Source of the DNA: Thermoproteota archaeon
GTDB lineage: Archaea; Thermoproteota; Nitrososphaeria; Nitrososphaerales; Nitrosopumilaceae
Direction: 5' to 3'
DNA length: 64,000 nt
NCBI GenBank assembly: GCA_003352285.1
Contig: QQVN01000003.1
Span: forward strand, 62,001 to 126,000
A program made the position numbers and the translations under genes. This document shows, in pieces, positions 4,275 to 39,479 of the stretch. The notes beneath the pieces are model-generated. The model was not told where the DNA came from and ran no database searches. It saw nothing but the letters and a program-made list of their open reading frames with translations. Numbering within the stretch: position 1 is the first letter of the stretch; each line of letters starts with the position of its first letter.

Positions 4275-7200
4275 TTGAAGTCAGCAGCATTACTAGTCAT
4301 ATTATTTTCAGTAATACTTGTAGGATCTGCGCCTGTGTTTGCAAGCACAAGCTCCAGTCATCCATTCATTTTGAAATGGGGTGAATCAGGATTAAATTCA
4401 CCTGGAAAATTCTCCAATCCTCAAAACATAGCAATTGATTCTAGCGATAATGTCTACGTAACAGACTTGGGTAATAAAAGAGTCCAAAAATTCTCCAGTT
4501 CTGGAGGTTTTCTAAAAGCTTGGGGAAGTAGCGGAAGTGATCCTGGCAAATTTTCATCCCCATCTGGCATTACCACTACAAAAGATGCCGTCTTTGTTGT
4601 CGATAGCCAATTACACAAAGTCCAAAAATTTGATCTTGAGGGAAATTTCATTCTTCAATGGGGAATTCAAGGTAGTAATCCCGGTGAATTTTTACTCCCT
4701 AATGGAATAGCTTCTGATAAATCTGGAATGATTTTTGTAGTTGATACTGGAAATCATAGAATCCAAAAATTTGATTCTGATGGAAATTTTATCTCGTCAT
4801 TTGGAAAAAGTGGAATATCTGATGACAAATTTGTCTCCCCATTAGGAATTGCAATTGACCCTGCAGGAAATATCTATGTCTCTGACACAGGAGATAACAG
4901 CATTAAAAAATTTGATTCTAATGGAAATTTTGTTAGCATAATTGATTCCAGTGTAGGTGGAACTGCAATAAAGGTACAGGGAATCACAATTGATCCTGAA
5001 GGAAATCTATATGCAGTTGATACTGGAAGTGATCGAGTCTTACGATTCAACACAAATGGAATTGCAATCTCAGTATGGGGAAGCATGGGCATTCAACCAG
5101 GTCAGTTTAAAATGCCAAAAGATGTCACACTAGATAGCAAAGGAAATCTTTACATTGTAGATACTAACGGACATAGAATTCAAAAATTTGGAACACCAAT
5201 TGTAATACAACAACAGACTTCAACACCCGTGACACCAAAAACTCAGACTGTTACTACGCCATTACCAACTGTTAATCCAATCCCAGGTGATTTGACAAAA
5301 CCGATAATAGTTCCACCAAATGATCTAATAATAGAGGCAACTGGAGCTCTTACTCCTGTCAATGTTGGTCAGGCAGTAGCAACTGATGCAAGTGGAATTA
5401 AATCATTAGAGAATAACGCACCTGACAAATTTACACTTGGCATAAACACTGTCATATGGACTGCAATAGATGGTTCTGGAAATATGGCAATAGCTACACA
5501 AAAGGTAACCGTATCGGACACCATTCCACCAACGATTTCACCAATGCCTAGCATTACAGTAGAGGCAGAGAATCCAAATCAAAATACGGTTGAATTGGCA
5601 GAGCCTGCTGTATCTGATACGGTAGGAGTACTATCAATCACAAATGACGCTCCCGAATTCTTTACTCTTGGAACGACAGAAGTAACATGGATTGCCTCAG
5701 ACATTATGGGAAATACGGCAAGTACAGTTCAAACTATAAATGTAGTTGATACGACAAATCCTTCATTATACGTACCAGAGAATGTTATAGTGGAAGCAGA
5801 TTCTCTTGACAAGAATCAAGTGTATCTTGGTGAAGCAACAGTAATTGACAATGGCCAAGTACTATCAATCACAAATGATGCACCAGAGTTTTTCAAAATT
5901 GGAAACTATACAGTAACTTGGATGGCCTCTGATACATCTGGAAACATTGCTACTGATGTACAACTAGTTTCTATTATTGATACACAACCTCCAGAGATAG
6001 TTTTCCCTGAAACAATTATTGTAGAGGCAACATCTGTTAATTCCAACGTTGTAACTCTTGATAAAATATCTGTTAGTGACATTCAAGGTGTTAAAATCAC
6101 AAATGATGCTCCAAATGTTTTTCCAATTGGAGACACTATTGTAACATGGACTGCAATCGATGAATCAGGAAATTCATCAAATGTAGAACAGATTGTCTCT
6201 GTAGTTGATACTACTGCTCCATCAATTACTGTTCCTGATGACCTAATAGTAGAGGCATCTGGATTTGAAGGTAACATTGTAAATTTGGGTGATGTAATTG
6301 TGGAAGATGTAGGTAGTATTGCATCCATAACAAATGATGCACCAGAATCATTTTCTCTTGGAAAAACAATAGTAACTTGGACTGTATCTGATATACATGG
6401 AAATATCTCAAACTCTGAACAAATAATCAACGTAATTGATACACAACCGCCAGAAATTACTGCACCTGCTGATATAGAGCTTGAAGCATCAAGCAAATCC
6501 GATAACTCTGTAGCTTTGGGACAACCAATCGTTAATGATCTAGTTGACATTGCATCCATAACAAATGACGCTCCCAAATCATTTCCTATTGGAATGACAA
6601 CAGTCACTTGGACAGCAGTTGATACATCCGGTAATGAATCTGTAGACATTCAAACAATCACAATCTCTGATACAATTTCTCCTGAAATTACTGCACCAGA
6701 AGATTTAAAGATCGAAGCAGTTGGTCCAAACCCTGTGACTGTATCTCTTGGAGAGACAGTAACCAACGATACAATTGGAATCGCATCAATCACAAATGAC
6801 GCTCCTAACATGTTCCCATTTGGAGATACGCTAGTAACCTGGACTGCTACTGACCTATATGGGAACTCTGCATCTGATGTACAAATTGTTTCTATAATAG
6901 ATACTACTGCTCCTGAATTGAATCCTCCAGAAAATATCACCGTTGAGGCAACAAGCACAACTCAAAATTCTGTACTACTTGGCTCCCCTAAAGCAACCGA
7001 TGCTGTGGGTGTAGCATCCATAACAAATGACGCACCAGTATCCTTCCCAGTCGGTGATACCATAATTACTTGGACTGCAACAGATACTTCTGGAAACTCT
7101 GTAAATGCTCAACAAACTGTTTCTGTCGTTGATACCATTCCTCCTACAATATCTCAACCAAAATTAATCAAAATTGAGGCAACTTCAGAGCTTGATAATC

Positions 7201-9098
7201 AAATTGAATTACCAACAGTTAATGCAACCGATGCTGTGGGTGTAGCATCCATAACAAATGACGCACCAGTATCCTTCCCAGTCGGTGATACCATAATTAC
7301 TTGGACTGCAACAGATACTTCTGGAAACTCTGTAAATGCTCAACAAACTGTTTCTGTCATTGATACAACATCTCCAACTCTTTATGTTCCAAAAGATAAA
7401 GTAGTTGAGGCAACAAGCTTACTCTCAAATATTGTAGAATTTGGCACAGCAACTGCTACCGATGCTGTAGGAGTTGCATCCATAACAAATGATGCTCCTG
7501 ATGTCTTCCCGCTAGGTTTAACATCAATTACTTGGACTGCAACAGATACTTCTGGAAATCAATACTCTGCAGTGCAACAAATTCATGTCGTTGATACCAC
7601 AGCTCCTGGAATTACTCCACCAGAGAGTATTACCATTGAGGCAGAATCTTTACAAAACAACAAGGTTGATTTGGGTCAACCAATTGTATCTGATCAAGTA
7701 AAACTTGACTTTGTAACAAATGACGCACCAGCATCATTTTCACTTGGAGAAACAATAGTAACTTGGACTGCAACTGACTCTTCTGGAAATATTGTCAATG
7801 CAACTCAACTAGTAACATTAATTGATACACAACCTCCAAAAATCACTCCTCCAAATGATGTTATACTAGAGGCAACATCCCTTAATGGAAATATTGCTGA
7901 ACTAGGAATGCCTGTTGCTAGTGATTCAGTAAGTGATGTTATAATTACAAATGACGCACCATCATCCTTCCCAGTTGGTGATACCATAGTCACTTGGACA
8001 GCAACTGATGAAAATGGAAACTCTGCATCTGGAACTCAAAAAGTTTCAATTATTGATACCACTGTACCTCAAATTATAATTCCTGATGATATTACAATTG
8101 AGGCAGTCTCACCAACTGAAAACATAATCGACATTGGATTAGCAACTGCAACTGATCTTGTTGAGATTGCATCCATAACAAATAACGCACCCTCTGTATT
8201 TTCATTTGGAAACACCGAAGTCACTTGGACTGCAACAGATACTTCAGGTAATTCAATCACAGATATTCAGATGATTAATGTTGTTGATACTAGTCCACCA
8301 AAATTAACTGTTCCAAAGAATGTAATAGTTGAGGCAACTAGCATTTCGGAAAACATCGTTAACATAGGTTCTGCAAATGCAGTCGATATTATTCAGGTTG
8401 AATCATTAAGTAATGACGCTCCTAATGTTTTCCAATTGGGTGACACTATAATCACTTGGACTGCCATTGATCAAGATGGTAACTCTGCAACCGCAACCCA
8501 AAAGATTAGTGTAGTCGATACTACTGCTCCAACCATAACTCCTCCAGCAAATATCATAGTAGACGCTACTGCATTGGAGACTCCGATAACCGTTGGATTG
8601 GCATCTGTAAGTGATATTATTGATTTAGAACCTACCGTAACAAATGACGCACCATCTGTATTCCCATTAGGTGAAACCATAGTGACCTGGACAAGCTCAG
8701 ATTCATTTGGAAATGTAAACAATGCAACTCAGATAGTTACTGTTCAAGCATGTGGCAAGGATTCTTCAAGCTATAACATGATTATTGGAACACCTGATGA
8801 CGATGTAATTAATGGAACACCTCAAGCAGATCTAATCTTTGCACTAGATGGTGATGATATCATCATGGGTAACAAAGGTAATGATTGCATATTTGGTGGC
8901 GATGGTGATGATATCATATTTGGAAATGAAGGACATGATACACTCATTGGCGATCAAGGAAACGATATACTCAAGGGTCAATCAGGAAATGATATCCTCA
9001 ATGGATTGACTGGAATAGATATCATTGACGGCGGAGATGATGTAGATTCTTGTACTGTCTCTCAAGCTGATGGCGATATGGTCATCAAATGTGAATAA
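4275..9098 (+). CDS. Giant secreted protein: NHL propeller, 15 HYR domains, RTX-type calcium repeats
   Basis: A 1607-residue surface or secreted protein. Residues 1-23 form a signal peptide with hydrophobic core (ending near VFAS). Residues about 30-310 contain six NHL-type repeats (xxVxDTGNxRIQKF pattern), which fold as a beta-propeller. After a Thr/Pro linker come 15 HYR-like immunoglobulin-fold repeats of about 75-80 residues from about residue 350 to 1490, each with an 'xPxxIxVEA' opening and a 'SITNDAP..F.G.T.VTWTATD' core. The tail carries RTX-type nonapeptides (GDDII-G-N-G-D, about residues 1500-1580), known elsewhere to bind calcium. The start is TTG at 4275. Likely role is adhesion or cell-envelope structure (inference). 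Confidence 0.9.
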   Translation: MKSAALLVILFSVILVGSAPVFASTSSSHPFILKWGESGLNSPGKFSNPQNIAIDSSDNVYVTDLGNKRVQKFSSSGGFLKAWGSSGSDPGKFSSPSGITTTKDAVFVVDSQLHKVQKFDLEGNFILQWGIQGSNPGEFLLPNGIASDKSGMIFVVDTGNHRIQKFDSDGNFISSFGKSGISDDKFVSPLGIAIDPAGNIYVSDTGDNSIKKFDSNGNFVSIIDSSVGGTAIKVQGITIDPEGNLYAVDTGSDRVLRFNTNGIAISVWGSMGIQPGQFKMPKDVTLDSKGNLYIVDTNGHRIQKFGTPIVIQQQTSTPVTPKTQTVTTPLPTVNPIPGDLTKPIIVPPNDLIIEATGALTPVNVGQAVATDASGIKSLENNAPDKFTLGINTVIWTAIDGSGNMAIATQKVTVSDTIPPTISPMPSITVEAENPNQNTVELAEPAVSDTVGVLSITNDAPEFFTLGTTEVTWIASDIMGNTASTVQTINVVDTTNPSLYVPENVIVEADSLDKNQVYLGEATVIDNGQVLSITNDAPEFFKIGNYTVTWMASDTSGNIATDVQLVSIIDTQPPEIVFPETIIVEATSVNSNVVTLDKISVSDIQGVKITNDAPNVFPIGDTIVTWTAIDESGNSSNVEQIVSVVDTTAPSITVPDDLIVEASGFEGNIVNLGDVIVEDVGSIASITNDAPESFSLGKTIVTWTVSDIHGNISNSEQIINVIDTQPPEITAPADIELEASSKSDNSVALGQPIVNDLVDIASITNDAPKSFPIGMTTVTWTAVDTSGNESVDIQTITISDTISPEITAPEDLKIEAVGPNPVTVSLGETVTNDTIGIASITNDAPNMFPFGDTLVTWTATDLYGNSASDVQIVSIIDTTAPELNPPENITVEATSTTQNSVLLGSPKATDAVGVASITNDAPVSFPVGDTIITWTATDTSGNSVNAQQTVSVVDTIPPTISQPKLIKIEATSELDNQIELPTVNATDAVGVASITNDAPVSFPVGDTIITWTATDTSGNSVNAQQTVSVIDTTSPTLYVPKDKVVEATSLLSNIVEFGTATATDAVGVASITNDAPDVFPLGLTSITWTATDTSGNQYSAVQQIHVVDTTAPGITPPESITIEAESLQNNKVDLGQPIVSDQVKLDFVTNDAPASFSLGETIVTWTATDSSGNIVNATQLVTLIDTQPPKITPPNDVILEATSLNGNIAELGMPVASDSVSDVIITNDAPSSFPVGDTIVTWTATDENGNSASGTQKVSIIDTTVPQIIIPDDITIEAVSPTENIIDIGLATATDLVEIASITNNAPSVFSFGNTEVTWTATDTSGNSITDIQMINVVDTSPPKLTVPKNVIVEATSISENIVNIGSANAVDIIQVESLSNDAPNVFQLGDTIITWTAIDQDGNSATATQKISVVDTTAPTITPPANIIVDATALETPITVGLASVSDIIDLEPTVTNDAPSVFPLGETIVTWTSSDSFGNVNNATQIVTVQACGKDSSSYNMIIGTPDDDVINGTPQADLIFALDGDDIIMGNKGNDCIFGGDGDDIIFGNEGHDTLIGDQGNDILKGQSGNDILNGLTGIDIIDGGDDVDSCTVSQADGDMVIKCE
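6993..7358 (+). repeat. Exact 135-bp direct duplication inside the HYR array
   Basis: Bases 6993-7127 and 7224-7358 are identical over 135 bp, offset by 231 bp (77 codons, one HYR unit). The other HYR units in this gene differ at many sites, so this pair points to recent unit duplication or gene conversion. The copies keep the reading frame. Confidence 0.9.
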
Positions 9099-13380: not shown

Positions 13381-14658
13381 ATGTCAAAATCCCAAAAAAT
13401 GTTTTCAAATGCAAAAAAAGTCATTCCTTCCGGAGTGAATAGCCCAGTTCGTTACTTTACACCTTATCCGTTCTTTGTGACAAAGTCAGATAAGAGCAGC
13501 ATTTGGGATGTTGATGGAAAAAAATACATTGATTTTTGCAATGGCTATGGTGCACTACTGTTAGGACATAGGCGAAAAGAGATAATCGCAGCAGTCTCGG
13601 CTCAACTCAAAAGAGGAACACTATTTTGTACTCCTTCTGATTTGGAAGTTGAATTATCAAAACTCATTGTAAAAAATTATCCCTCGATTAACAAAGTTCG
13701 TCTTGTAAACACTGGTTCTGAAGCCACAATGACTGCAATTCGACTTGCACGTGGTTTTACAAAAAAGAAGAAGATAATAAAATTTGAAGGATGTTATCAT
13801 GGTGCTCATGATTCTGTTTTAGTCAAAGCAGGTTCTGGCTCTGCACATAATGGAATATCAGTTTCAGAAGGAGGTCTAGACGAAGTATCAAGAAATACTT
13901 TGGTAGTACAGTACAATAATTCTCAACAGCTAGAGGATGTTATTAGAAAAAACAAGGATGTTGCAGGAGTTATTGTAGAACCGATTCTTGCAAACATGGG
14001 ATTAGTTCTTCCTGAGAAAAACTTTCTAAAAGAGATCAGAAAAATTACTTCACAAAATGATGTCCCCCTAATCTTTGATGAAATAGTCACAGGTTTTCGT
14101 ATATCTTCAGGTGGAGCACAAAAATACTTTGGAATCAAACCTGATGTCACTACCCTTGGAAAGGCACTTGGGAATGGATTTACAATTGCTGCAGTTGGCG
14201 GAAAAAAAGAAATAATGAATCAACTTACTCCTGGAGGAAAAGTATACCAAGCAAGCACTTTTGCAGGAAATCCTGTATCCGTAGCTGCTGGTATTAGCTC
14301 AATTAAGACCATGAACAAACTTGGCAACAAGATGTATTCAAAACTTGAACGATACTGTGCTGCACTTACTAGAGCCATCGATGATATTGCAACTGATATG
14401 AAAATTCCACATCAGATTAATTTTTCAGCATCAATGTTTCAAATATTTTTTACAGACAAACCTGTAGTTGATTATCGTAGTTCAAAAAATGCTGATGCAA
14501 AAAAATTCAATAAACTTTTTCAGCATCTTCTAAAGAAAGGAATCTTTATCGCTCCATCTCAATTTGAAGTAGTGTTTTTATCTGAAGCTCACACAAATTC
14601 TGATCTTAACAAGGCAGTTGACGCATATTCAACTGGTTTACAAGCGGTGAAGCATTGA
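13381..14658 (+). CDS. hemL: Glutamate-1-semialdehyde 2,1-aminomutase
   Basis: PLP enzyme that turns glutamate-1-semialdehyde into 5-aminolevulinate in the C5 pathway. Family landmarks are VIPSGVNSPVR near the N-terminus, NTGSEATMTAIRLAR, FEGCYHGAHD, IFDEIVTGFR and the PLP lysine in TTLGKALGNG. The 425-residue length is standard. It heads a tightly packed set hemL-hemC-cobA-hemD with overlapping stops and starts. HemA and HemB, the steps before and after, are in other blocks of this window on the opposite strand. Confidence 0.95.
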   Translation: MSKSQKMFSNAKKVIPSGVNSPVRYFTPYPFFVTKSDKSSIWDVDGKKYIDFCNGYGALLLGHRRKEIIAAVSAQLKRGTLFCTPSDLEVELSKLIVKNYPSINKVRLVNTGSEATMTAIRLARGFTKKKKIIKFEGCYHGAHDSVLVKAGSGSAHNGISVSEGGLDEVSRNTLVVQYNNSQQLEDVIRKNKDVAGVIVEPILANMGLVLPEKNFLKEIRKITSQNDVPLIFDEIVTGFRISSGGAQKYFGIKPDVTTLGKALGNGFTIAAVGGKKEIMNQLTPGGKVYQASTFAGNPVSVAAGISSIKTMNKLGNKMYSKLERYCAALTRAIDDIATDMKIPHQINFSASMFQIFFTDKPVVDYRSSKNADAKKFNKLFQHLLKKGIFIAPSQFEVVFLSEAHTNSDLNKAVDAYSTGLQAVKH

Positions 14659-15590
14659 AATATCTCATAGGTACGCGCGGTAGCCAACTTTCAATCGCAC
14701 AAACAAAATGGATTATCTCAGAACTCCAAAAGCAAAACCCAGAGGACTCATTTGAGATTATTACCATTACAACCAAAGGAGATACTGATGCACGCCCATT
14801 ATTTACAATTGATCAAAAGGGAATCTTTGAAAAAGAAGTTGACAGAGCAGTTTCTGAAAAACGAGTTCATTTTGCAGTACATAGTCTTAAGGACGTACCA
14901 ACTGAGATCTCTGCAGACCTAACTATAGCATGTATTCCAAAACGTGAAAAGGTAAATGACATTTTGATTTCAAAAAACGGTGATACTTTGGAATCTCTTC
15001 CTACTGGTGCGTTGATTGGTACTAGCAGTTTACGTAGGGCAGTACAGATATCTCGAAAGCGTCCAGACATTAAGGTAAAACCAATTCGTGGAAACATTGA
15101 GACTCGAGTTAGAAAAGTTACTGAAGGTGAGTTTGATGGCGTGATTTTAGCTATAGCTGGAATCACTCGTCTAGGACTAGACACAAAGTATTCAATGTTA
15201 ACTACCGATGATCTTTCTCCTTCTCCTGGACAGGGGGCATTAGCTATTGTTTGCAGAAAAGATGATTCTCAGACAATTTCAATGCTAAAAAAAATTGAAG
15301 ATAACACATCTAGATGGGAGATAGAGGCAGAACGTGCATTATCAAAATATGTCGATTCTGGTTGCCGCTTTCCTATTGGGGCATATGCAAAATCATACGG
15401 TGAGTCAATGACACTCAAAGTTAGCGCCTTCTCAGTCGATGGACAAAAATCAATCGTGGTGCAAAAATCTGGCCCTCGAGATGAGCCAGAATCACTAGGA
15501 AGAACTGTTGGCAAAGAATTACAAGAGAAAGGAATTGCAGACCTTGCATTAAATTGGAGAGAGAAGGTTGAGGAGTGGAATAAACAATGA
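14655..15590 (+). CDS. hemC: Hydroxymethylbilane synthase (porphobilinogen deaminase)
   Basis: Joins four porphobilinogens into hydroxymethylbilane. The protein opens with the typical IGTRGSQLSIAQT, contains VHSLKDVPTE and LSPSPGQGALA, and has the cysteine that carries the dipyrromethane cofactor in SGCRFPIGAYA. Its 311 residues match the family. The start is a TTG overlapping the hemL stop (TTGA). Next gene cobA overlaps its stop by four bases. Confidence 0.95.
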   Translation: MKYLIGTRGSQLSIAQTKWIISELQKQNPEDSFEIITITTKGDTDARPLFTIDQKGIFEKEVDRAVSEKRVHFAVHSLKDVPTEISADLTIACIPKREKVNDILISKNGDTLESLPTGALIGTSSLRRAVQISRKRPDIKVKPIRGNIETRVRKVTEGEFDGVILAIAGITRLGLDTKYSMLTTDDLSPSPGQGALAIVCRKDDSQTISMLKKIEDNTSRWEIEAERALSKYVDSGCRFPIGAYAKSYGESMTLKVSAFSVDGQKSIVVQKSGPRDEPESLGRTVGKELQEKGIADLALNWREKVEEWNKQ

Positions 15591-16330
15591 GTGGTAAGGT
15601 ATACTTGGTTGGTGCTGGTCCGGGAGATTCTAAATTAATTACGTTACGTGCAGTAGAATTACTACAAAAGGCAGATGTTGTTCTGTATGATAGATTAGTT
15701 AGTAAGAAAATTCTTGCAATGATTCCAAAAAAGACAGAAAAGATTTACGTTGGACGTGCAGTAGGGGATGATACAAAACATCAAGACAGTACTAATGAAT
15801 TAATGGTAAAATTTGCTAAAAAGAAAAAAAATATTGTTAGACTCAAAGGCGGTGATCCAATAATATTTGGACGGGGTGGAGAAGAGGCAGAATACCTCAA
15901 AGAAAACAAAATAAAATATGAGATAATTCCAGGAATCACTTCTGGAATTGGCTCTGCAACATACTCTGGCATACCATTAACTCACAGAAAATATGCCTCC
16001 TCAGTAGCCTTTGTTACCGGACATGAGGATCCTGAGAAAAAGGTTGAAGTTGTAAAGTGGAAGAACTTGGCAAAATCAGTTGATACTATAGTAATTATGA
16101 TGGGATTAGGACGAATAGGAATCATCTGTAAGCAATTGGCTCAAGGCGGAATGAAAAAAGATACACCCGTTGCTGTAATTCAAAATGGCACCACATCAAA
16201 ACATAGGATGATTACAGGAAATATAACAAACATTGAAAAAATGGTTAAGGAGAAAAACTTCAAAGCTCCTTCCATAATTATTATAGGTAAAGTCGTTGAT
16301 TTATCTAAGATTATTGGGTGGAAGAAATGA
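15587..16330 (+). CDS. cobA: Uroporphyrinogen-III C-methyltransferase (SUMT)
   Basis: Uses two S-adenosylmethionines to make precorrin-2 from uroporphyrinogen III, committing the flux to siroheme, cobalamin and siroheme-derived heme. Motifs are VGAGPGDSKLITL at the N-terminus, LKGGDPIIFGRGGEE, the VIPGITSG-like IPGITSGIGS, and PVAVIQNGTT. It is 247 residues, the usual single-domain size. The ATGA overlap with hemD downstream and the overlap with hemC upstream show co-translation. Confidence 0.94.
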   Translation: MSGKVYLVGAGPGDSKLITLRAVELLQKADVVLYDRLVSKKILAMIPKKTEKIYVGRAVGDDTKHQDSTNELMVKFAKKKKNIVRLKGGDPIIFGRGGEEAEYLKENKIKYEIIPGITSGIGSATYSGIPLTHRKYASSVAFVTGHEDPEKKVEVVKWKNLAKSVDTIVIMMGLGRIGIICKQLAQGGMKKDTPVAVIQNGTTSKHRMITGNITNIEKMVKEKNFKAPSIIIIGKVVDLSKIIGWKK

Positions 16331-17127
16331 TTGAAGGAAAGACTATAGCAATTACTCGTTCAAAGGAAGATTCTAGTGAATTTATCTCATTGATGCAAGA
16401 GAACAAAGCAACACCAATCACACTTCCAACAATTCAGTTAGTTAGTAAGGGTGAGAAAATTGTTGATGAGTTTTTGAATGCCATAAAAGAATATGATCCT
16501 GATTACTCTGTGTTTATGAGCTCAAAAGCAGTGACACTACTCTTTGACACTGCAAAGAAGATATCAAAGCTTGAAAAACTACAACTGGCAGTTGCAAATA
16601 CTATAGTAATAGCTGTTGGACCAAAGACTAAGCAGGTATTGGAATCAGAAGGAATCAAAGTAAATCACACGCCAAAACGATTCTCTTCTGTTGGTGTTGG
16701 TGAAGTCTTTACTAGACTCAACGCAGTTGGGAAAAAAGTAATTGTTCCACGAAGTGGTGCATCTACTCCATTTCTCAAGGATCTTTTAGAGAAGATTGGT
16801 CTTGACGTAAAAGAGCTTTATCTTTATGATGTATGTGCATTTCAAGACACTACTCAATGGAATGAATTTAGAGAACTTTTTTCAAAAAATAATGTAGATG
16901 GAATTGTTTTTACAAGTGCATCTTCTGTTAGGGCATTCTTTGAGATAATGACAAATGATGTCCCAAAAGAGAAATTACTAAAAAGTTTAGAAAAAACCCA
17001 TGTTGTTGCAATTGGCCCATTTACCGCCGATGAGCTAAAAAAATTCAATGTACAAAACATCATCGCTGAAGTACATACTATTCCTGGCGCATTTGATACG
17101 ATAAAAAATATTTTTTCAGTTGCGTAA
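16327..17127 (+). CDS. hemD: Uroporphyrinogen-III synthase
   Basis: Closes and inverts hydroxymethylbilane to uroporphyrinogen III. HemD is poorly conserved, but this one has the usual two-lobed layout, with an N-terminal KTIAITRSKEDSSEF, central IVPRSG and the C-terminal GIVFTSASSVRAFFE and VAIGPFTADEL segments. I prefer ATG at 16327, which makes the standard ATGA overlap with cobA, over GTG at 16318. Its place directly after hemC and cobA supports the call. Confidence 0.9.
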   Translation: MIEGKTIAITRSKEDSSEFISLMQENKATPITLPTIQLVSKGEKIVDEFLNAIKEYDPDYSVFMSSKAVTLLFDTAKKISKLEKLQLAVANTIVIAVGPKTKQVLESEGIKVNHTPKRFSSVGVGEVFTRLNAVGKKVIVPRSGASTPFLKDLLEKIGLDVKELYLYDVCAFQDTTQWNEFRELFSKNNVDGIVFTSASSVRAFFEIMTNDVPKEKLLKSLEKTHVVAIGPFTADELKKFNVQNIIAEVHTIPGAFDTIKNIFSVA

Positions 17128-24875: not shown

Positions 24876-25847
24876 TTGTTGGCATCACTCGAAAGGGTTG
24901 CTTCCAAGCTAGAAGAAAGAAAAAAGGAAGCTTCAAAACTTCGAAGAAAAGGGGAAAGAGAACTAAAGAAAGCTCGTTCATTACTTAGACGATCTACTTC
25001 TGGATTGGCAACCGTAGCACGTAAAGTAGAAAATGCAAGAGAAGAATTATCTGATGTAGCAGGCGTTTTAACTCAAAAGTTAGCACAAAAAGAGAGCATC
25101 GAAAGACTGGTTACAACAGCAAAAGACCGAGTATCCAAAGAAAAAGAAGCCCTAGAACAAGCCCTACAAGAATTAGACTTTGCCAGCTCTGATGAGGAAA
25201 AACAGAGTGCACAATCTAGAATTAACTCACTTAATCAGCATATTGCCGATTTAGAGGATGAAATAAAAGAAAGAGACAAAACACTTCGAAAAATCACGGA
25301 TGCAATAGATGATATTCAATCAAATAAATCCAAAATTTCCGGAAAAATTCAAAAACAGACTAAGGTAAAACCTACTCTTCAAAAGATGTTAAAAGAGAGC
25401 AAAAAGGACGCAGAACGCTTCTCAAAACAGGTTGTAGTAAAAGCAAAACAAGAGGAATCTGCTAAAAATACTCTCATCAAGGTAAAAGAAAAATTAGAAA
25501 AAGTAAAAGCCCAAAAGCGAAAATTAGCTGCCAAAAAGCGTTCAAGAAAAGCAAAACCAAAGAAACGCTCAAAGAAAGCATCCAAACCAAAACGCAAATC
25601 GGCTAAAAAGACAGCAACAAGAAAAGCAAAACCAAAGAAACGCTCAAAGAAAGCATCCAAACCAAAACGCAAATCGGCTAAAAAGACAGCAACAAGAAAA
25701 GCAAAACCAAAGAAACGCTCAAAGAAAGCATCCAAACCAAAACGCAAATCGGCTAAAAAGACAGCAACAAGAAAAGCAAAACCAAAGAAACGCTCAAAGA
25801 AAGCATCCAAACCAAAACGCAAATCGGTTAAAAAATCTAGAAGATAA
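24876..25847 (+). CDS. Coiled-coil protein with histone H1-like lysine-rich repeat tail
   Basis: A 323-residue (or 322, from the second TTG at 24879) very basic protein. Residues 1-220 are charged heptad-like sequence with EKESIERL and QSRINSLNQHIADLEDEI stretches, predicted coiled coil. Residues about 220-323 are almost only Lys, Arg, Ala, Ser, Pro and Thr, in 25-residue repeats (KKASKPKRKSAKKTATRK). This composition resembles the tails of eukaryotic H1 and some bacterial H1-like proteins that bind DNA. A chromatin-organising role is plausible but inferred only from composition. Confidence 0.8.
   Translation: MLASLERVASKLEERKKEASKLRRKGERELKKARSLLRRSTSGLATVARKVENAREELSDVAGVLTQKLAQKESIERLVTTAKDRVSKEKEALEQALQELDFASSDEEKQSAQSRINSLNQHIADLEDEIKERDKTLRKITDAIDDIQSNKSKISGKIQKQTKVKPTLQKMLKESKKDAERFSKQVVVKAKQEESAKNTLIKVKEKLEKVKAQKRKLAAKKRSRKAKPKKRSKKASKPKRKSAKKTATRKAKPKKRSKKASKPKRKSAKKTATRKAKPKKRSKKASKPKRKSAKKTATRKAKPKKRSKKASKPKRKSVKKSRR
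25551..25829 (+). repeat. 75-bp tandem repeats encoding the basic tail
   Basis: Copies begin at 25551, 25626, 25701 and 25776. The first three are complete; the fourth runs to about 25829, where it diverges (ggcta becomes ggtta). The copies are identical at DNA level, so the array expanded or homogenised recently. Each unit is 25 codons, so changes in copy number keep the frame. Confidence 0.92.
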
Positions 25848-29750: not shown

Positions 29751-30062
29751 TTATCCATAATCGACATATCTGTCGTATCTTTTTTCTACTTCTTTATTTT
29801 CACCTTTCATAATTTTATCGATCTCAATTTTTGTTCTATTCTGAATATATTTTTTCATATCTTCAAACTTTTCATCATTTGGAAACTTCAGGAAAAGTGG
29901 TTCTAATTCTCTGAAATATTCTACCACTTTTTTGTGATATTCTTCCCTAGTAGGGTTTTTTATTCCATTTAGACGAAAAAAGATTACTGCCCAACTTGAA
30001 CCAACTACATGTGGCAGTAAATCAAACGCACGTTCAATCTCAAAGCGATGTTCGTCCCTCAT
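29751..30062 (-). CDS. Small helical protein coupled to hemB
   Basis: A 103-residue, highly charged helical protein of unknown function. It begins with an ATGA overlap on the hemB stop, so it is the downstream partner of hemB in one transcript. Noticeable parts are AFDLLPHVVGSSWAVIFFRLNG and a lysine/glutamate-rich C-terminus. No metal or cofactor motif is obvious. The tight coupling suggests a link to tetrapyrrole synthesis, but this is only contextual. Confidence 0.65.
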   Translation of the reverse strand: MRDEHRFEIERAFDLLPHVVGSSWAVIFFRLNGIKNPTREEYHKKVVEYFRELEPLFLKFPNDEKFEDMKKYIQNRTKIEIDKIMKGENKEVEKRYDRYVDYG

Positions 30063-31042
30063 TTGGACTCTTGCAAAAATTTTGCAGCTTGTTTTGCAAA
30101 ATATGTTACCATCATATCAGCACCTGCTCGCTTTATAGAGTAAAGAATCTCATGAATTATCTCTTTTTCAGGAATCCAACCCTGTATGGCTGCACCCTTG
30201 ACTAATGCATACTCTCCTGATACACTATAGGCTGATACGGGAACATTGAATCTTTTTTTAGTTTCTGCAATCAAATCAAGATATGCCAAAGCAGGTTTTA
30301 TCATTACTATGTCCACTCCTTCATTGATGTCTGTTTCAACTTCTCGTAAAGCTTCTCTAGAATTTGTATATGGAACTTGGTATGATCTTCTGTCACCAAA
30401 TTTAGGTGCACACTCTGCTGCATCCCTGAATGGAGAATAAAATGATGATCTATGTTTTGCAGAATGAGACATGATTCCTACATTTGTAAAACCTGCATCA
30501 TCTAACGCAGTCCTTATTGCAAGTACCTGACCGTCCATCATCGCTGATGGGGAAACAATATCTACTCCTGCCTTTGCTTGACTAACTGCAATATTTGCCA
30601 ACGTTGCAATGCTCGAGTCATTATCAATTGAATTTTCTTTAACATGTCCACAATGTCCGGATGTGGTGTACTGGCATAAGCAAACATCTGCCATGATGAC
30701 AATTTTTTCACCATAATTTTTTCGTATCTGTGTAATTGCTTTTTGTACAATTGCATTTTCCCCTAATGCTCCAGTGCCTGCATCATCTTTCTTTGATGGA
30801 ATTCCAAATAGCATAATTGCGGGTATGTTCAAATCAGTAATTGTTCCAACTTCGTCAATAACATCATCTAATGGCAATCTTTCAATATCTGGCATAGAAT
30901 CCACTTTGATTCTACTTTTTAGATTCTCCTGAACAAATACTGGACAAATGAAATCATGTGGGGTTAGAACTGTTTCCTGCATTAATTCTCGCATTTTCTC
31001 AGAATTTCGTAATCTTCTGAGACGTTTGGTTGGAAAAGACAT
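30059..31042 (-). CDS. hemB: Delta-aminolevulinic acid dehydratase (porphobilinogen synthase)
   Basis: Condenses two 5-aminolevulinates to porphobilinogen. Seen are LTPHDFICPVFV, the zinc-site cysteines in ADVCLCQYTTSGHCGH, the active lysines in MSHSAKHRSSFYSPFRDA and DIVMIKPALAYLD, and AYSVSGEYAL. From ATG at 31042 it is 327 residues; a further ATG at 31060 adds six residues. The cysteine-rich site indicates a zinc-dependent rather than Mg-only enzyme. Confidence 0.95.
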   Translation of the reverse strand: MSFPTKRLRRLRNSEKMRELMQETVLTPHDFICPVFVQENLKSRIKVDSMPDIERLPLDDVIDEVGTITDLNIPAIMLFGIPSKKDDAGTGALGENAIVQKAITQIRKNYGEKIVIMADVCLCQYTTSGHCGHVKENSIDNDSSIATLANIAVSQAKAGVDIVSPSAMMDGQVLAIRTALDDAGFTNVGIMSHSAKHRSSFYSPFRDAAECAPKFGDRRSYQVPYTNSREALREVETDINEGVDIVMIKPALAYLDLIAETKKRFNVPVSAYSVSGEYALVKGAAIQGWIPEKEIIHEILYSIKRAGADMMVTYFAKQAAKFLQESK

Positions 31043-31078
31043 ACTAGAAACCCAAACCATTTGTTTCTTATACTTTAC

Positions 31079-33883: not shown

Positions 33884-35143
33884 CTATGTTTCTTTTTTCT
33901 TGTAATTGAATAGTTTACTTGCTGCATCTAAAATTTCAGGATTTCCTTGTTCAGATGCTTTTCTTAAATTATTCATAGGAGCTGAAACGATACTCTCAAC
34001 TACAGCTTTTGTTAAATCTTCGATAATTTTGATCTTTTCTGAATCATTTTCGCCTAGCATCTGAAGAGCTTTCTGTAATTCTTTTTCCCTTAGGACATCT
34101 ATATTTTTGAAGACGTCTTTCACAATTGGTTCTGCATCTAGTCTTTTCATAGAGGCCTCAATTACTTGTAATTCTTCATTAATTATATTTTCAACTATTT
34201 TGACTTTATCTTGTCTTTTTCGCATGTTTTTATCGACCATTTCTGCAATTTGATCCAGGTTCATCAGTTTAATGTTACCAAGTGTTGCTACTTTTTCATC
34301 AACTGTTCTTGGATTTGACAAATCCAAAATCATCATACCTTTTTTCTTATCTTTTAATGCCTTTGCAATTCTTTCATACGTTACAAGAAAGTATGGAGCT
34401 GTTGTGGCAACAAAGATGACATCATATTTTTCAAAACCTCCGAGCACTTCTTCAAATTTTACTGCTTGACCTCCCATAGTTTCACAAAACGCTTGAGAAC
34501 GTTGGAGTGTTCTACTAGTTACAGAAAACCCATAACCTCGTCGGTTTAGTGATTTGGCAACAAGTGTGGATACTTCGCCTGTACCAATTACTAGGATTTG
34601 TTTTGATTTTAGCTCATCAATGTTTTCTTCTGCAAGCTTTACTGCCATAGAGCCTACTGAAATTCCACCTTTGCTGATGCCTGTGGTATTTCTAATACGT
34701 GTTCCAATTCTGATTGCCTTGTCAAATAATGTATTGAGTCGTTCACCTGATGCTTTATTGATCCTTGCAGTTGTAATGGAATTTTTTATTTGACCTAGAA
34801 TTTGTTCTTCGCCAACAACCATTGAATCTAAACCTGAAGTAAGTTTTAACAAATGAAGATAGGCCTCATCATCTATCTCTATCTCTAAATTTTCTTTGAA
34901 TGCACTTTCTTCTAATCCTGAAAGTGATGCCCAAGTTTTCTGGATTTTTTTTATGTCGCAATTTTTACCAGTGGCAAAAATTTCTATTCTATTACAAGTC
35001 TGCAAAATCACACACTCTTCTGATTCTGAAAACTTTCTAAATTCCAAGAGCGCATTTTTTATATCTTTGAAAGTAAATCGCTCAAGAACATGTATTGGTG
35101 AATTACGAAATGTTACCCGTGCATTTATCACATTTTGATTCAT
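33884..35143 (-). CDS. hemA: Glutamyl-tRNA reductase
   Basis: First enzyme of the C5 tetrapyrrole pathway, reducing glutamyl-tRNA to glutamate-1-semialdehyde with NADPH. The nucleophilic cysteine is in LQTCNRIEIFA near residue 49. Other signatures are SGLDSMVVGEEQILGQ, ISVGSMAVKLAEE, the Rossmann ILVIGTGEVSTLVA and the C-terminal dimerisation helices. It is 419 residues. The start overlaps the stop of the precorrin-2 dehydrogenase gene upstream by ATGA. Confidence 0.95.
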   Translation of the reverse strand: MNQNVINARVTFRNSPIHVLERFTFKDIKNALLEFRKFSESEECVILQTCNRIEIFATGKNCDIKKIQKTWASLSGLEESAFKENLEIEIDDEAYLHLLKLTSGLDSMVVGEEQILGQIKNSITTARINKASGERLNTLFDKAIRIGTRIRNTTGISKGGISVGSMAVKLAEENIDELKSKQILVIGTGEVSTLVAKSLNRRGYGFSVTSRTLQRSQAFCETMGGQAVKFEEVLGGFEKYDVIFVATTAPYFLVTYERIAKALKDKKKGMMILDLSNPRTVDEKVATLGNIKLMNLDQIAEMVDKNMRKRQDKVKIVENIINEELQVIEASMKRLDAEPIVKDVFKNIDVLREKELQKALQMLGENDSEKIKIIEDLTKAVVESIVSAPMNNLRKASEQGNPEILDAASKLFNYKKKET

Positions 35144-35793
35144 TTCCAGTCCCTCAACATTTGATTTGCTCGTTTCTGTGCAATTTCCAATTTGTTGTCT
35201 TTTATTAACTGTTTAATCTGATTATCATTAATTACTGCGTATAGGTACTTTTTTCGTTCTATCTGTGTGCTGATTTCTTTTTTGGCATTTTGACGAGCGA
35301 TCTCTTGAATTTTGATTAATTCAATGTCTTCTCTTGTAATGAGTTCTTTGAAGACCTTCTCAGCTTGCATCTTGACTCTTCTTGCCATTGCGGGGCTTTT
35401 TCCTTTTGTTGAGATTGCAATCTGAATTGTATCTTCAATGTTAATTACTGATGGATGTGCAAAATCACTAATCTCAGGGTCATCTGATGCATATGCTAGA
35501 CAATTTAATTTTCTAGCAGCTTCAACAATTTTTCTATTAAGATTTTTGTTATCTGTTGTTGCCATAACTAAGTAGGGTTTATGTTTTGAAAGAAAACTGG
35601 GTTCATCCAGTTTGACTTTTTGAAATTCAATTTTCTTAGAATCTACATATTTTTTGATTTGTGGATTAATCGAATCACTTACCAGAAGTATTTTACAATC
35701 TTGTGTGAGTAATGAGTTTATTTTTTTAAGGCCTTCTGCTCCTCCTCCAACAACTATCACTAAATTCCCCTTTAGATGTAAATCAACAATCAA
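35140..35793 (-). CDS. Precorrin-2 dehydrogenase (possibly also ferrochelatase)
   Basis: A CysG-N/Met8p-like NAD-dependent enzyme that oxidises precorrin-2 to sirohydrochlorin and may also insert iron to give siroheme. The N-terminal Rossmann part reads LHLKGNLVIVVGGGAEGLKK; further on are LVMATTDNKNLN and the sulfonate-like IAISTKGKSPAMARRVK. It is 217 residues. It lies directly upstream of hemA in the same transcript, tying the start of the C5 pathway to the siroheme branch. Confidence 0.9.
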   Translation of the reverse strand: MIVDLHLKGNLVIVVGGGAEGLKKINSLLTQDCKILLVSDSINPQIKKYVDSKKIEFQKVKLDEPSFLSKHKPYLVMATTDNKNLNRKIVEAARKLNCLAYASDDPEISDFAHPSVINIEDTIQIAISTKGKSPAMARRVKMQAEKVFKELITREDIELIKIQEIARQNAKKEISTQIERKKYLYAVINDNQIKQLIKDNKLEIAQKRANQMLRDWK

Positions 35794-35901: not shown

Positions 35902-36912
35902 ATGGATGATTTAGATAAAGAAATTTTAAATGAAATTCAATGGACATTTCCATTAGTTTCTCAACCTTATCATGAAATTGCCAAAAAATTCAATGTCTCA
36001 CCTGATGTGATAAAAGAACGACTGAAAAATCTAAAAAAAATTGGTGTCTTGCGACAACTAAGTGCAATTTTTGACACTCGTAGATTAGGATACAAAAGCT
36101 CCCTTGTTGCGATGGAGATTGAGCCTGACAAATTAGAGTATGTGGCCAATCAAATTAACCGCCATCCTGGTGTGAGTCATAATTATGAAAGAAACCATCA
36201 GTTCAATCTCTGGTTTACATTAGCTGTTCCTCCTGGTTCTGATCTTAAAACCGAAGTTGATAAATTCAAAAAAATTCCCGGCATTCTAAAAGTAAGAATG
36301 CTTCCAACAATTCAGCTCTTTAAGATTGGTGTTAAACTTGACATGGTTGAAGAAAAAAAACACGACATAAAACCGTCTGAGGAAAAAAAGAAGATTCGTG
36401 ATGTCAAATTTGATCCGACCGAAGAAGACAAAGAATTCATACGACAACTACAAAAAGATCTTGAGATAGTAGATCGTCCATTTCTAAAACCTGCAACATC
36501 ATTAGGATTAACAGAAGATCAGGTGTTTGAAAAATTACGTTATTATGAAGACATTGGGGTAATGCGTCGCTATGCTGCAATTTTACGACATCGTGATGTT
36601 GGGTTTACTGCAAATGGTATGATAGTGTGGAAAGTTCCAGATGAAAGAATAAAAAATGTTGGTGAATTACTAGGCGCATTCCCACAAGTGAGTCATTGCT
36701 ATCAAAGACCTGTATACCCTGATTGGCCTTACAATGTTTTTTCAATGATTCACTGTAAATCAGAAGATGAGGCAAATGAAATGGCAAAAACGATAGAAAA
36801 TCAGATTGATGTTCATGAATATAGGATATTATTTAGTTCACGTGAATTCAAAAAAACGCGTGTAGAGTATTTTGTTGAGCACGAATTTTCCATAGAAGAA
36901 ATTACAGCATAA
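35902..36912 (+). CDS. ahbAB: Fused siroheme decarboxylase AhbA-AhbB (NirDL type)
   Basis: Two AsnC/Lrp-like units in one 336-residue chain. Unit one (residues 1-155) has LDKEILNEIQWTFPLVSQPY and GVLRQLSAIFDTRRLGY; unit two (about 170-325) has RPFLKPATSLGLTEDQV, GVMRRYAAILRHRDVGF and CYQRP. These are the signatures of siroheme decarboxylase, which makes 12,18-didecarboxysiroheme in the alternative heme route, rather than of a transcription factor. It is divergent from the hemA block. AhbC and AhbD are not in this window. Confidence 0.88.
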   Translation: MDDLDKEILNEIQWTFPLVSQPYHEIAKKFNVSPDVIKERLKNLKKIGVLRQLSAIFDTRRLGYKSSLVAMEIEPDKLEYVANQINRHPGVSHNYERNHQFNLWFTLAVPPGSDLKTEVDKFKKIPGILKVRMLPTIQLFKIGVKLDMVEEKKHDIKPSEEKKKIRDVKFDPTEEDKEFIRQLQKDLEIVDRPFLKPATSLGLTEDQVFEKLRYYEDIGVMRRYAAILRHRDVGFTANGMIVWKVPDERIKNVGELLGAFPQVSHCYQRPVYPDWPYNVFSMIHCKSEDEANEMAKTIENQIDVHEYRILFSSREFKKTRVEYFVEHEFSIEEITA

Positions 36913-36913
36913 A

Positions 36914-37264
36914 CTATACTTCATTTTCATCATGTCCAACTACATGACTAGAACAAAAGTATGCATCATTGACATTGCAATAGAATAGTGATTCTTCTCC
37001 ACATTCTTTACATGATGGTTTTTTATCATTTTCTGATAATTTCATATGATAGATTTTACTTCTGACTTTGACCTTTCCTTCTTTGTATATGCGAGTAAAA
37101 TTACTAAAATAGGATCTTTCTATTTCATCTAATTGTTGACCTGATTCAATTTTTTTGATTATGGTTTTCCATTTTCCATACTCGCCAATTCTTGCAAGCT
37201 TTAGCCTTTCAATAATCTCTAGGGTTTTTTTAGAGTCAAACTGTTCTGTCATGAATGGTATCAT
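36914..37264 (-). CDS. Protein with C-terminal B-box-like zinc motif
   Basis: A 116-residue protein of unknown function. The first 80 residues are helical and charged; the end has CKECGEESLFYC and FCSSHVVGHDE, a cysteine/histidine pattern like a B-box or treble-clef zinc site. Its start overlaps the aldo/keto reductase stop as ATGA, making it the last gene of a four-gene minus-strand operon. Confidence 0.65.
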   Translation of the reverse strand: MIPFMTEQFDSKKTLEIIERLKLARIGEYGKWKTIIKKIESGQQLDEIERSYFSNFTRIYKEGKVKVRSKIYHMKLSENDKKPSCKECGEESLFYCNVNDAYFCSSHVVGHDENEV

Positions 37265-38259
37265 GCAGCCTGCGTGGTTGCTTTAAGCTCATATGCAGGC
37301 CATGAGTTAAACAATTCCTCAATCTCTTTCATGTCTGTTTGGTTGATATAGTTGCCATCTGACATGGCTGCAAAACTTTCAATCTCTTCAACACTAATTA
37401 CTGTTGGAAACACTGATGCAAATCCTTTCTTTGATAAAATGAATTTAATTGCAAGCTCTGTGATGGTTAGGTCGTTTCGTTGTGCTATTGGGCGTAACTG
37501 CTCCACTTTTTGTAGTGCTGACTTTATCCATTCTCCTTTTCTTACAGAGCGATGATCTTTTTCATCAATCTTAGTTTCTGCATTAACTTTTCCTGTAAGA
37601 ATTCCAGATGCATCAGGAACTCTTACCAGTATTCCTACATCCTTTTGTGTTGCCATATCAAACAGCTCATTTCCTGGTGTTTGTTCCAGTATGTTGTATA
37701 CTGTTTGCACTGCGCTAACATTTGTTCTATCCATTGCCTCAATTCCTTCTTGTGTCCAGCCAATGGCAGGTCCTAATGCAATCTGATATGTGTTGATCTT
37801 TTGCTCTTCAATTAATTTATCAAGAGTTTGAAATATTGTATCGTCTCTGATGTGGTTTAGTTTTGGATTGTGTAGACCATACACATCTACATAGTTCGTT
37901 TGAAGTCTCTCTAAACTATTTCTTAATGCTTTGTTGGTAAAATCTGGGGCAAAGCTCTGTGGAAGCTCACTATGTCCAATTTGCTCTACTCCTTCAAAGT
38001 CATATCCATACTTTGTCGATATGATGATTTCCTTTCTTACATCTTTGAGATATTTGCCGATTAAAGTTTCACTTTTTCCTTTTCCGTACATATCTGCTGT
38101 TTCAAAAAAGTTAATTCCTAAATCATATGCTCGCTTTAGCATCTTTGCTGCTTCGTCTTCGTGAATTTCTTTTCCCCACCAATTCAGGGCTATTGTCCAT
38201 GCCCCAAATCCTATCTCAGATACCTCGATTCCACTCTTGCCTAGCTTTTTGTATTTCAT
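37261..38259 (-). CDS. Aldo/keto reductase
   Basis: NAD(P)H-dependent oxidoreductase with a TIM-barrel fold. The catalytic tetrad can be seen: Asp and Tyr in FFETADMYGKGKSE, Lys in IISTKYGYDF and His in VYGLHNP. The 332 residues start SGIEVSEIGFGAWTI, typical of the family. Overlaps of four bases with both neighbours show it sits inside a co-translated operon with a Cld-family protein and DUF1802. Substrate unknown. Confidence 0.9.
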   Translation of the reverse strand: MKYKKLGKSGIEVSEIGFGAWTIALNWWGKEIHEDEAAKMLKRAYDLGINFFETADMYGKGKSETLIGKYLKDVRKEIIISTKYGYDFEGVEQIGHSELPQSFAPDFTNKALRNSLERLQTNYVDVYGLHNPKLNHIRDDTIFQTLDKLIEEQKINTYQIALGPAIGWTQEGIEAMDRTNVSAVQTVYNILEQTPGNELFDMATQKDVGILVRVPDASGILTGKVNAETKIDEKDHRSVRKGEWIKSALQKVEQLRPIAQRNDLTITELAIKFILSKKGFASVFPTVISVEEIESFAAMSDGNYINQTDMKEIEELFNSWPAYELKATTQAA

Positions 38260-38801
38260 TTTGTAATCTCCGTGAACTTTTCTAATTTTGAGTTAATCTC
38301 TGATTCTGGAAGCACTGGTTGACCATTTTGAATTTCTTCATTTATGTTTATCCAAGATTTGCAACCCTGATATTCTGATTTTAATGGAATCTCTCTTTGG
38401 GGAATTCGATAAACTTTGAGAAATACTGCTTTTAGTGGTTTTTCTGGTTTCCAGTTTCTTCTTTCCTGAATATACGAATCACTCCAGATGTGAAATTCAG
38501 ATAATGCTTTCACTTTTTCATTATCTGATACATCTGCTTCTCCTAATACCTCTGCATATGATGTAATTCTGTTATGTCCTTCTCTTGGTTTATTCTCTTT
38601 TATCTGGTTTAGTAATTTATGAAATTCAGGTTTGATATGATGTGTCTCTTGATGTTCAAATGTTGGAAATAAAAGAAATTTCTTTGCCTCAACATTGAAT
38701 CCTGATGCTGTTTCTAAAATTCCACCTTTACGCAACAAAACTGTCTGCTTTCCTGACTCTAGTGCAGTAACAACCGTTGCCCATTCTTTTAGTGATTCCA
38801 A
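38256..38801 (-). CDS. DUF1802-family protein
   Basis: A 181-residue protein with the DUF1802 opening LKEWATVVTALESGKQTVLLRKGGI, a family of unknown function found in archaea and cyanobacteria. No catalytic residues are established. It lies directly after the Cld-family gene (start one base after its stop) and overlaps the aldo/keto reductase start by four bases, so its work is probably linked to theirs. Confidence 0.8.
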   Translation of the reverse strand: MESLKEWATVVTALESGKQTVLLRKGGILETASGFNVEAKKFLLFPTFEHQETHHIKPEFHKLLNQIKENKPREGHNRITSYAEVLGEADVSDNEKVKALSEFHIWSDSYIQERRNWKPEKPLKAVFLKVYRIPQREIPLKSEYQGCKSWININEEIQNGQPVLPESEINSKLEKFTEITK

Positions 38802-39479
38802 CTATCCTAAGCTGGATATCAGGGAAATAATATCTTTTTTAACACAAACAATCATGGGAGTATCGACCTGCACATATTTTGAAACTTGTGTTTGTCGTAA
38901 ATCCATAATTAAATTCTGAAAGTCTCGTAAATCATCACATTCAAATGCTAACATGAAATCCTCATCATGTATACCGAATGAATATGTAGTATTCAGAACT
39001 ACTTGGGGATATTTTTGACCTACTGAAATATGCTCATCCATCATCTTTTGCCTTTGTTGCTCAGTAAGTAGGTACCATTCTCTGGTCTTTGTAAATGGAT
39101 AAACTACAGCATATTTTTTTGGTTGATTGCCTGCAACAAATGATAATGTTAACCCCTTTTTTGCATATAACGACGGCCTAGTACATGACAAATAAGTTCT
39201 TGAAGAAACAATATACTTTCCAAACACTGTTAGATACAATTTAGAAATTACATTCTGAATTTCCTCAACTGATTCTGCTGCAAACCAAATTAGAAATTCA
39301 GCATCGTCACGTAATCCTAGAGTTGAATAGGTTCTAAATTTTATTCCAGAGTTTCTAATTACGTTTTCTACTTCTCTGGCGGATTCTTCTTTTGCAAGGT
39401 CTGCCATCCATCTCCATTTTGGATCAACTTTGAAGAAACAAAAGTCAAAAAAGTATTGCTTATCTTGACCCTCTTCCAT
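38802..39479 (-). CDS. Chlorite dismutase/HemQ-family heme protein
   Basis: A 225-residue two-module ferredoxin-like protein of the Cld family. The strongest match is YPFTKTREWYLL followed by MMDEHISVGQKYP and NTTYSFGIHDEDFMLAFE, close to HemQ/ChdC coproheme decarboxylases; the His in MMDEH is the likely heme-ligand position by family comparison. The catalytic Arg of true chlorite dismutases cannot be placed with certainty. Given siroheme decarboxylase nearby, it may finish heme synthesis or act as a peroxide-handling heme protein. The minus-strand TATA-like TTATTTAAATAA precedes it. Confidence 0.82.
   Translation of the reverse strand: MEEGQDKQYFFDFCFFKVDPKWRWMADLAKEESAREVENVIRNSGIKFRTYSTLGLRDDAEFLIWFAAESVEEIQNVISKLYLTVFGKYIVSSRTYLSCTRPSLYAKKGLTLSFVAGNQPKKYAVVYPFTKTREWYLLTEQQRQKMMDEHISVGQKYPQVVLNTTYSFGIHDEDFMLAFECDDLRDFQNLIMDLRQTQVSKYVQVDTPMIVCVKKDIISLISSLG

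Follow-up and report, generated by a model that had tools for sequence, protein, structure and literature searches.

Which enzymes finish heme in an ammonia-oxidizing archaeon whose genome carries the early genes of the siroheme route together with a gene of the chlorite dismutase (Cld) family? The question is raised by a window of 64,000 nucleotides (the whole stretch analysed, positions 62,001 to 126,000 of contig QQVN01000003.1), for which the first-pass annotation had proposed a hybrid pathway, with AhbC supplying coproheme to a HemQ-like protein of the Cld family. The host genome of the window is that of Nitrosopumilus sp. b1 (1.69 Mb, estimated completeness 99.64%), and the Cld-family proteins of the window and of this strain are 100% identical. 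We conclude, with a probability of about 0.75, that heme would be made here by the siroheme route, that the step assigned to AhbC would be carried out by a different enzyme, with an aldo/keto reductase encoded beside the Cld-family gene as the first candidate, and that the Cld-family protein would finish heme as a coproheme decarboxylase (ChdC, also HemQ). The genes at the center of this argument are, in window coordinates:

35902..36912, plus strand, fused siroheme decarboxylase AhbAB (NF040708 and NF040707 over cut-off; PDB 4ch7, 2.2e-75)
36914..37264, minus strand, open reading frame (ORF) of 116 aa, overlapping the reductase gene by 4 nt
37261..38259, minus strand, aldo/keto reductase, putative candidate for the missing AhbC step (PF00248, 8e-53)
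38256..38801, minus strand, DUF1802 protein with a predicted ASCH-like fold (PF08819, 1.2e-54)
38802..39479, minus strand, Cld-family protein, best read as a coproheme decarboxylase (PF06778, 1.2e-58)

In the proposed pathway, SUMT (uroporphyrinogen-III C-methyltransferase) and precorrin-2 dehydrogenase would convert uroporphyrinogen III into siroheme, from which AhbAB would form 12,18-didecarboxysiroheme. An enzyme other than AhbC would then remove two acetate groups, with aromatization, and the Cld-family protein would convert the resulting coproheme into heme b, presumably by the ChdC chemistry of its family with peroxide as the oxidant.

AhbC and AhbD are absent from the genome

AhbD had been suspected to be missing, and it was found neither in the window nor in the whole genome (TIGR04545, best match 44 bits; cut-off 500). 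AhbC was likewise absent from the whole genome (TIGR04546, best match 51 bits; cut-off 650), so the search for a complete ahbCD pair, which the first-pass annotation had suggested, returned neither gene. None of the 17 radical-SAM (S-adenosylmethionine) matches of the genome in the NCBIfam scan was AhbC, AhbD or HemN above cut-off. The models are able to see AhbC in this order, since one genome of the same order (G201) scored 551 bits for AhbC and 441 bits for AhbD, encoded in tandem inside a hem operon.

In a phylum sample of 200 genomes, 33 of which belong to the window's clade (families f1, f2 and f3), the AhbC model at a threshold of 1e-30 matched 131 genomes and none of the 33. The AhbC gap is general across the window's clade, and the suggestion that AhbC supplies coproheme failed both for this genome and for all 33 relatives. 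Because AhbC is absent, the hybrid of AhbABC followed by HemQ is unworkable as written; what stood of it was the siroheme front end, the lack of AhbD and the HemQ-like nature of the Cld-family protein. The hole in the pathway is the conversion of 12,18-didecarboxysiroheme into coproheme, a step for which no known enzyme is present here.

Neither uroporphyrinogen decarboxylase (UroD) nor ferrochelatase had a match in the host genome, and none of 18 clade genomes had either enzyme over cut-off (two had UroD matches of 17–18 bits, below the cut-off). COX1 was present in all 18 and in 32 of the 41 genomes of an order sample, some of which are also in the phylum sample; the COX1 of the window genome carries the His motifs of heme-copper oxidases, whose residues we take to be the ligands. 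The 32 COX1-positive genomes were divided between an orthologue of the aldo/keto reductase (18 genomes; at least 347 bits, every other match being at most 224 bits), ferrochelatase (7), true AhbC (2, >540 bits) and none of the three (5), and no genome had two of them. The 18 reductase-positive genomes were all those sampled from f1 (6), f2 (6), f3 (5) and f43 (1); families f2, f3 and f43 are presumably ammonia oxidizers. The five genomes with none of these markers (G202, G208, G222, G227 and G230) may be incomplete, may take up heme or may use another route.

The Cld-family protein is most likely a coproheme decarboxylase

The Cld-family gene was found in a single copy in the window genome and once in each of the 33 genomes of f1, f2 and f3. 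The window protein matched the HemQ_actino model (NF042928) at 4e-44 and 150.5 bits, and on the same model Listeria HemQ, which passes its own model, scored 66 bits, below the cut-off, and the chlorite dismutase of Ideonella 52 bits. Its closest PDB structures were those of actinobacterial ChdC (9mhq, 7e-30, and 6xub from C. diphtheriae, 4.5e-24). In all 42 clade sequences we found Tyr127 at the catalytic position, a Lys at +4 and the proximal His150; the Tyr occupies the position of Y135 of C. diphtheriae ChdC, which we take to be catalytic, and the roles of the Lys, of the proximal His and of the distal-Arg position of chlorite dismutases are likewise presumed. The proximal His does not discriminate, because it is common to chlorite dismutase. 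The other two diagnostic positions separate the clade from three Cld-type sequences (Ideonella, Alicycliphilus and a Natronosalvus plasmid sequence, the last putatively placed in this type by its residues and tree position), which have Ile at the catalytic-Tyr position and Arg at the distal position, where all 42 clade sequences have Leu162. The residue alignment was built from loci that yielded a Cld sequence, and so leaves out L200 and L201 (AhbC loci) and L210 (short contig end); for L194, where the Cld ORF is overlong, a shorter start was used, and the ORF of L202 has a late start.

In a tree of 41 rows, 21 of them drawn from the 42 sequences of the clade, the three Cld-type sequences were split from all the ChdC-like rows, among them the clade, with a support of 100/100, and the clade sequences formed a single group (95/99). 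The program issued a long-branch warning, and the tree therefore supports the split from true chlorite dismutases and not the order among the ChdC groups.

The best guide to the role of the window protein is given by its homologues in operons. The Cld homologue of families f47, f48 and f52, which belong to the same order, lies inside a hemA-hemC-hemD-hemB-Cld-hemL-hemE-ferrochelatase operon, which was found in six of the eight stretches from these families (one of them, L194, is cut within hemE); the remaining two comprise a hemL-hemE-ferrochelatase stretch without Cld (L190) and one that starts at ferrochelatase (L193). In f15 the homologue is in an operon with hemE, with no ferrochelatase beside it. 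It is hard to doubt that the homologues in the hem operons of this order are ChdC. Taken with the structural matches, residues and tree, which bear out the HemQ-like character first proposed for the window protein, this supports the view that it is much likelier to be ChdC than chlorite dismutase, and coproheme decarboxylase is the most likely activity that we infer for it from sequence.

An aldo/keto reductase is the linked candidate for the missing step

On the minus strand, the genes for the Cld-family protein, DUF1802 protein, reductase and 116-aa ORF form a close series: the first two abut (0 nt), the later neighbours overlap by 4 nt each, and the 116-aa ORF ends 1 nt from the convergent ahbAB. 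The Cld-family gene had been placed about 2 kb from ahbAB, and 1.9 kb in fact separate them. The sufC gene, on the minus strand, does encode SufC. A convergent ahbAB lies no more than 6 kb away from Cld in 36 of 40 clade loci that were fetched and in 63 of 66 named loci; the named set overlaps the loci of the genome samples, and the counts are not additive. In all 41 fetched clade loci, and in all 71 named loci that were long enough (9 of the 80 were too short), the reductase is encoded directly downstream of Cld and in the same orientation. In the f3 loci L202 and L203, the genes for the precorrin-2 dehydrogenase (cysG_N), hemA, hemB and ahbAB have moved away, and Cld, DUF1802 and reductase are still together.

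The most complete arrangement was observed in two f2 loci (L061 and L208), where Cld, DUF1802, reductase, ahbAB, cysG_N, hemA, hemB, hemL, hemC, SUMT and hemD form a single row in which no further gene of at least 60 aa was called between members (L061 ends within hemD). Leaving a separate sirohydrochlorin ferrochelatase aside, this cluster encodes each enzyme on the way from glutamyl-tRNA to didecarboxysiroheme as well as the final enzyme of the pathway, and DUF1802 and the reductase are its sole members without an assigned step, which favours a linked gene for the missing reaction. DUF1802 was rejected as the main candidate: it lies between Cld and the reductase in 23 of 41 loci and not in the other 18, in whose genomes it may have moved elsewhere, and its AlphaFold2 model (pLDDT 91) matches ASCH proteins (5gus, Z 10.7, rmsd 2.9 over 125 residues). 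Since DUF1802 is dispensable and ASCH-like, the reductase is left as the linked candidate. The 116-aa ORF matched nothing in Pfam at 0.001 or in NCBIfam at 1e-30.

Tyr58, Lys83 and His130 of the reductase are at least 99% conserved among 117 sequences; at the position that we take to be the acid of the usual aldo/keto reductase tetrad, the window protein carries Glu and that of L199 Asp. The closest structures to it in the PDB are those of ordinary reductases, IolS among them. By formula, the conversion of didecarboxysiroheme into coproheme should amount to the loss of two acetic acids, with no net oxidant needed, so the redox balance would allow a non-radical enzyme. It is doubtful that an NAD(P)H-type aldo/keto reductase has replaced AhbC in ammonia-oxidizing archaea by removing both ring acetates from 12,18-didecarboxysiroheme.

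Radical-SAM proteins of the genome

The protein of the host genome nearest to AhbC (L019, 52 bits) was tried as a substitute and rejected: no more than 11 of the 31 family genomes encode it, although all 31 have Cld. This 318-aa radical-SAM protein of the PTO1314-like type (L003/L019, C3:146604-147557) adjoins a methyltransferase-like gene, and one genome (G198) has four matches to its type. The best NCBIfam matches of most other radical-SAM proteins assigned them to functions different from AhbC, namely Tes (L010), CofH, CofG, MqnE/MqnC-like (L009 and L011), BioB, Elp3, RlmN, TYW1, MiaB-like, KamA-like and AmmeMemo proteins. L018 matched a B12-binding radical-SAM model below its cut-off. No NCBIfam match was obtained for L021 at 1e-12 or for L020 at 1e-30, and the AhbC model, which has two matches in the genome at 0.001, hit neither of them. 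L013, a radical-SAM protein of 293 aa, was above the cut-off of no NCBIfam model.

Alternative explanations

Several observations weigh against the pathway proposed here. The 150.5 bits of the window protein lie below the HemQ_actino cut-off of 235 bits, as do the 138 and 143 bits of two operonic homologues next to ferrochelatase, and the protein lacks the distal His of actinobacterial ChdC, a residue with a role in those enzymes. The gene content shows no source of coproheme, and the direction of flow through the pathway is presumed; to our knowledge, no chemistry has been established for an aldo/keto reductase on didecarboxysiroheme, and we know of no mechanism. The 18 genomes with the reductase are probably all of one clade, in which case the mutually exclusive pattern of markers would represent few events. 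In the control rows, Sulfolobus acidocaldarius is positive for the Cld family and negative for AhbC at 1e-30, and this archaeon respires with heme. Finally, two f20 genomes of one genus (G064 and G076) have Cld and were not among the AhbC matches at 1e-30, and no such reductase is seen in L097, the one Cld locus retrieved from the pair; they are possibly a second lineage with the same gap. The remaining f20 genomes are unlike these two, several having ahbC-ahbD pairs.

The reductase is the part of the proposal most open to competition. The missing step might be performed by an unlinked enzyme, either an unassigned radical-SAM protein such as L013, for which the lack of any assignment above cut-off leaves room, or an oxygen-dependent enzyme of aerobic archaea; ChdC would still finish heme, and this explanation competes only with the reductase. 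We consider the chances of an unlinked enzyme about even, and more likely than the reductase to account for the step. Passages of PMC3004389 report ahb-nir genes for N. maritimus, S. acidocaldarius and H. walsbyi, all three of which are said to lack both radical-SAM genes, so one common solution would be economical. As the aerobic archaea S. acidocaldarius and Haloquadratum are thus reported to lack AhbC and AhbD (PMC3004389, in part), and the former has a Cld-family match, a shared oxygen-dependent enzyme encoded outside the cluster is at least as likely as the reductase. An unlinked gene sits poorly with L061 and L208, where everything else is in one cluster, and the radical-SAM protein nearest to AhbC is too sparsely distributed for the task. 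It is improbable that ChdC or AhbAB itself removes the acetates with no further enzyme: the pair may be common to lineages lacking AhbC (passages of PMC3004389), but relatives of the same order have a homologous ChdC beside ferrochelatase in an ordinary operon. We also know of no deacetylating activity for either protein. The view that heme synthesis is not completed, heme being imported or dispensed with, recalls the statement of Storbeck 2010 that heme synthesis in N. maritimus is questionable (PMC3004389, in part); it is very improbable given COX1 throughout the clade, with heme-copper His motifs in the window genome, and without coproheme there would be no use for a conserved ChdC. Least credible is the reading suggested by the annotation, in which the protein would be a genuine chlorite dismutase or would produce oxygen. 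A 2023 review mentions the Cld-like enzymes of ammonia-oxidizing archaea in the context of oxygen production, calling their function unknown (a passage in PMC10432482), but the distal Leu and the retained Tyr of the clade, the fully supported split in the tree and the hem-gene surroundings of the Cld gene all argue otherwise. We therefore retain the siroheme route ending in ChdC, with the reductase as the first candidate to be considered for the missing step.

Early-pathway genes and other features of the window

The remaining heme genes of the window agree with the first-pass annotation, with HemD recognized by sub-cut-off scores only. Both halves of AhbAB passed the curated cut-offs (AhbA 275 bits, cut-off 140; AhbB 253 bits, cut-off 125), and its top PDB match, 4ch7, is a NirD-like protein. 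The other genes are:

13381..14658, plus strand, HemL (TIGR00713, 551 bits; cut-off 527)
14655..15590, plus strand, HemC (TIGR00212, 325 bits, over cut-off)
15587..16330, plus strand, SUMT (TIGR01469, 310 bits, over cut-off)
16318..17127, plus strand, uroporphyrinogen-III synthase HemD (PRK05928-type models, 111 bits, below cut-off)
30059..31060, minus strand, porphobilinogen synthase HemB (NF006762, 453 bits, over cut-off)
33884..35143, minus strand, glutamyl-tRNA reductase HemA (TIGR01035, 339 bits, over cut-off)
35140..35793, minus strand, precorrin-2 dehydrogenase, CysG N-terminal domain (TIGR01470, 96 bits; cut-off 62)

Two further genes of the window encode repetitive proteins. The product of 4275-9098 is a large surface-type protein of 1607 aa that contains numerous near-identical repeats and whose GD-rich C-terminal stretch is similar to calcium-binding repeats, and that of 24876-25847 has a C-terminal array of near-perfect lysine-rich repeats, similar to a histone tail.

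Relation to known pathways and significance

The proposed route shares HemA-D, SUMT, precorrin-2 dehydrogenase and AhbAB with the siroheme-dependent (Ahb) pathway of Methanosarcina and Desulfovibrio, from which it differs in the absence of AhbC and AhbD. With the coproporphyrin-dependent pathway of Firmicutes and Actinobacteria it has in common a ChdC-type last enzyme, whereas UroD and ferrochelatase are absent here. The complete hem operons of the same order (L187, L188, L189, L191 and L192) encode a homologous Cld-family protein (34–39% identical by blastp), but carry hemE and ferrochelatase beside it. The closest parallel is Haloferax volcanii, in which, according to passages of PMC5746218, a siroheme-route front end is combined with completion of heme under air by a Cld-family protein, the ChdC-type PitA being used with air and AhbD without it. 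Haloferax keeps ahbC and ahbD, both absent here, and its ChdC carries a fused ABM-like domain, whereas that of the window is a single-domain protein (PMC5746218, in part). In haloarchaea, chdC is present in nearly all genomes and ahbD in two thirds (a section of PMC8305020). The feeding of ChdC by Ahb enzymes is thus not new, having been described in parts of these papers for Haloferax (PMC5746218) and haloarchaea (PMC8305020).

The absence of both radical-SAM genes was printed in 2010 for N. maritimus (a passage in PMC3004389) and in 2014 for other ammonia-oxidizing archaea (a passage in PMC4010524). Passages of later papers called the function of the Cld-like protein of this group unknown in 2018 (PMC5817080) and again in 2023 (PMC10432482). 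A metabolic model of N. maritimus cites a HemQ review for gap filling, and may already include HemQ (parts of PMC6038301). Our literature search found no paper that joins the Cld of ammonia-oxidizing archaea, the absence of AhbC and the reductase, or that names the reductase.

The protein of ammonia-oxidizing archaea usually labelled chlorite dismutase thus reads instead as a heme-finishing enzyme. If it is ChdC, what is left of the hole in the pathway comes down to a single reaction, for which a candidate gene can be named, and one proposed link between the Cld-like protein of these archaea and oxygen production would be removed. Should the reductase prove to have replaced AhbC, these archaea would have a further oxygen-tolerant way to coproheme, ending in ChdC and involving no radical-SAM enzyme.

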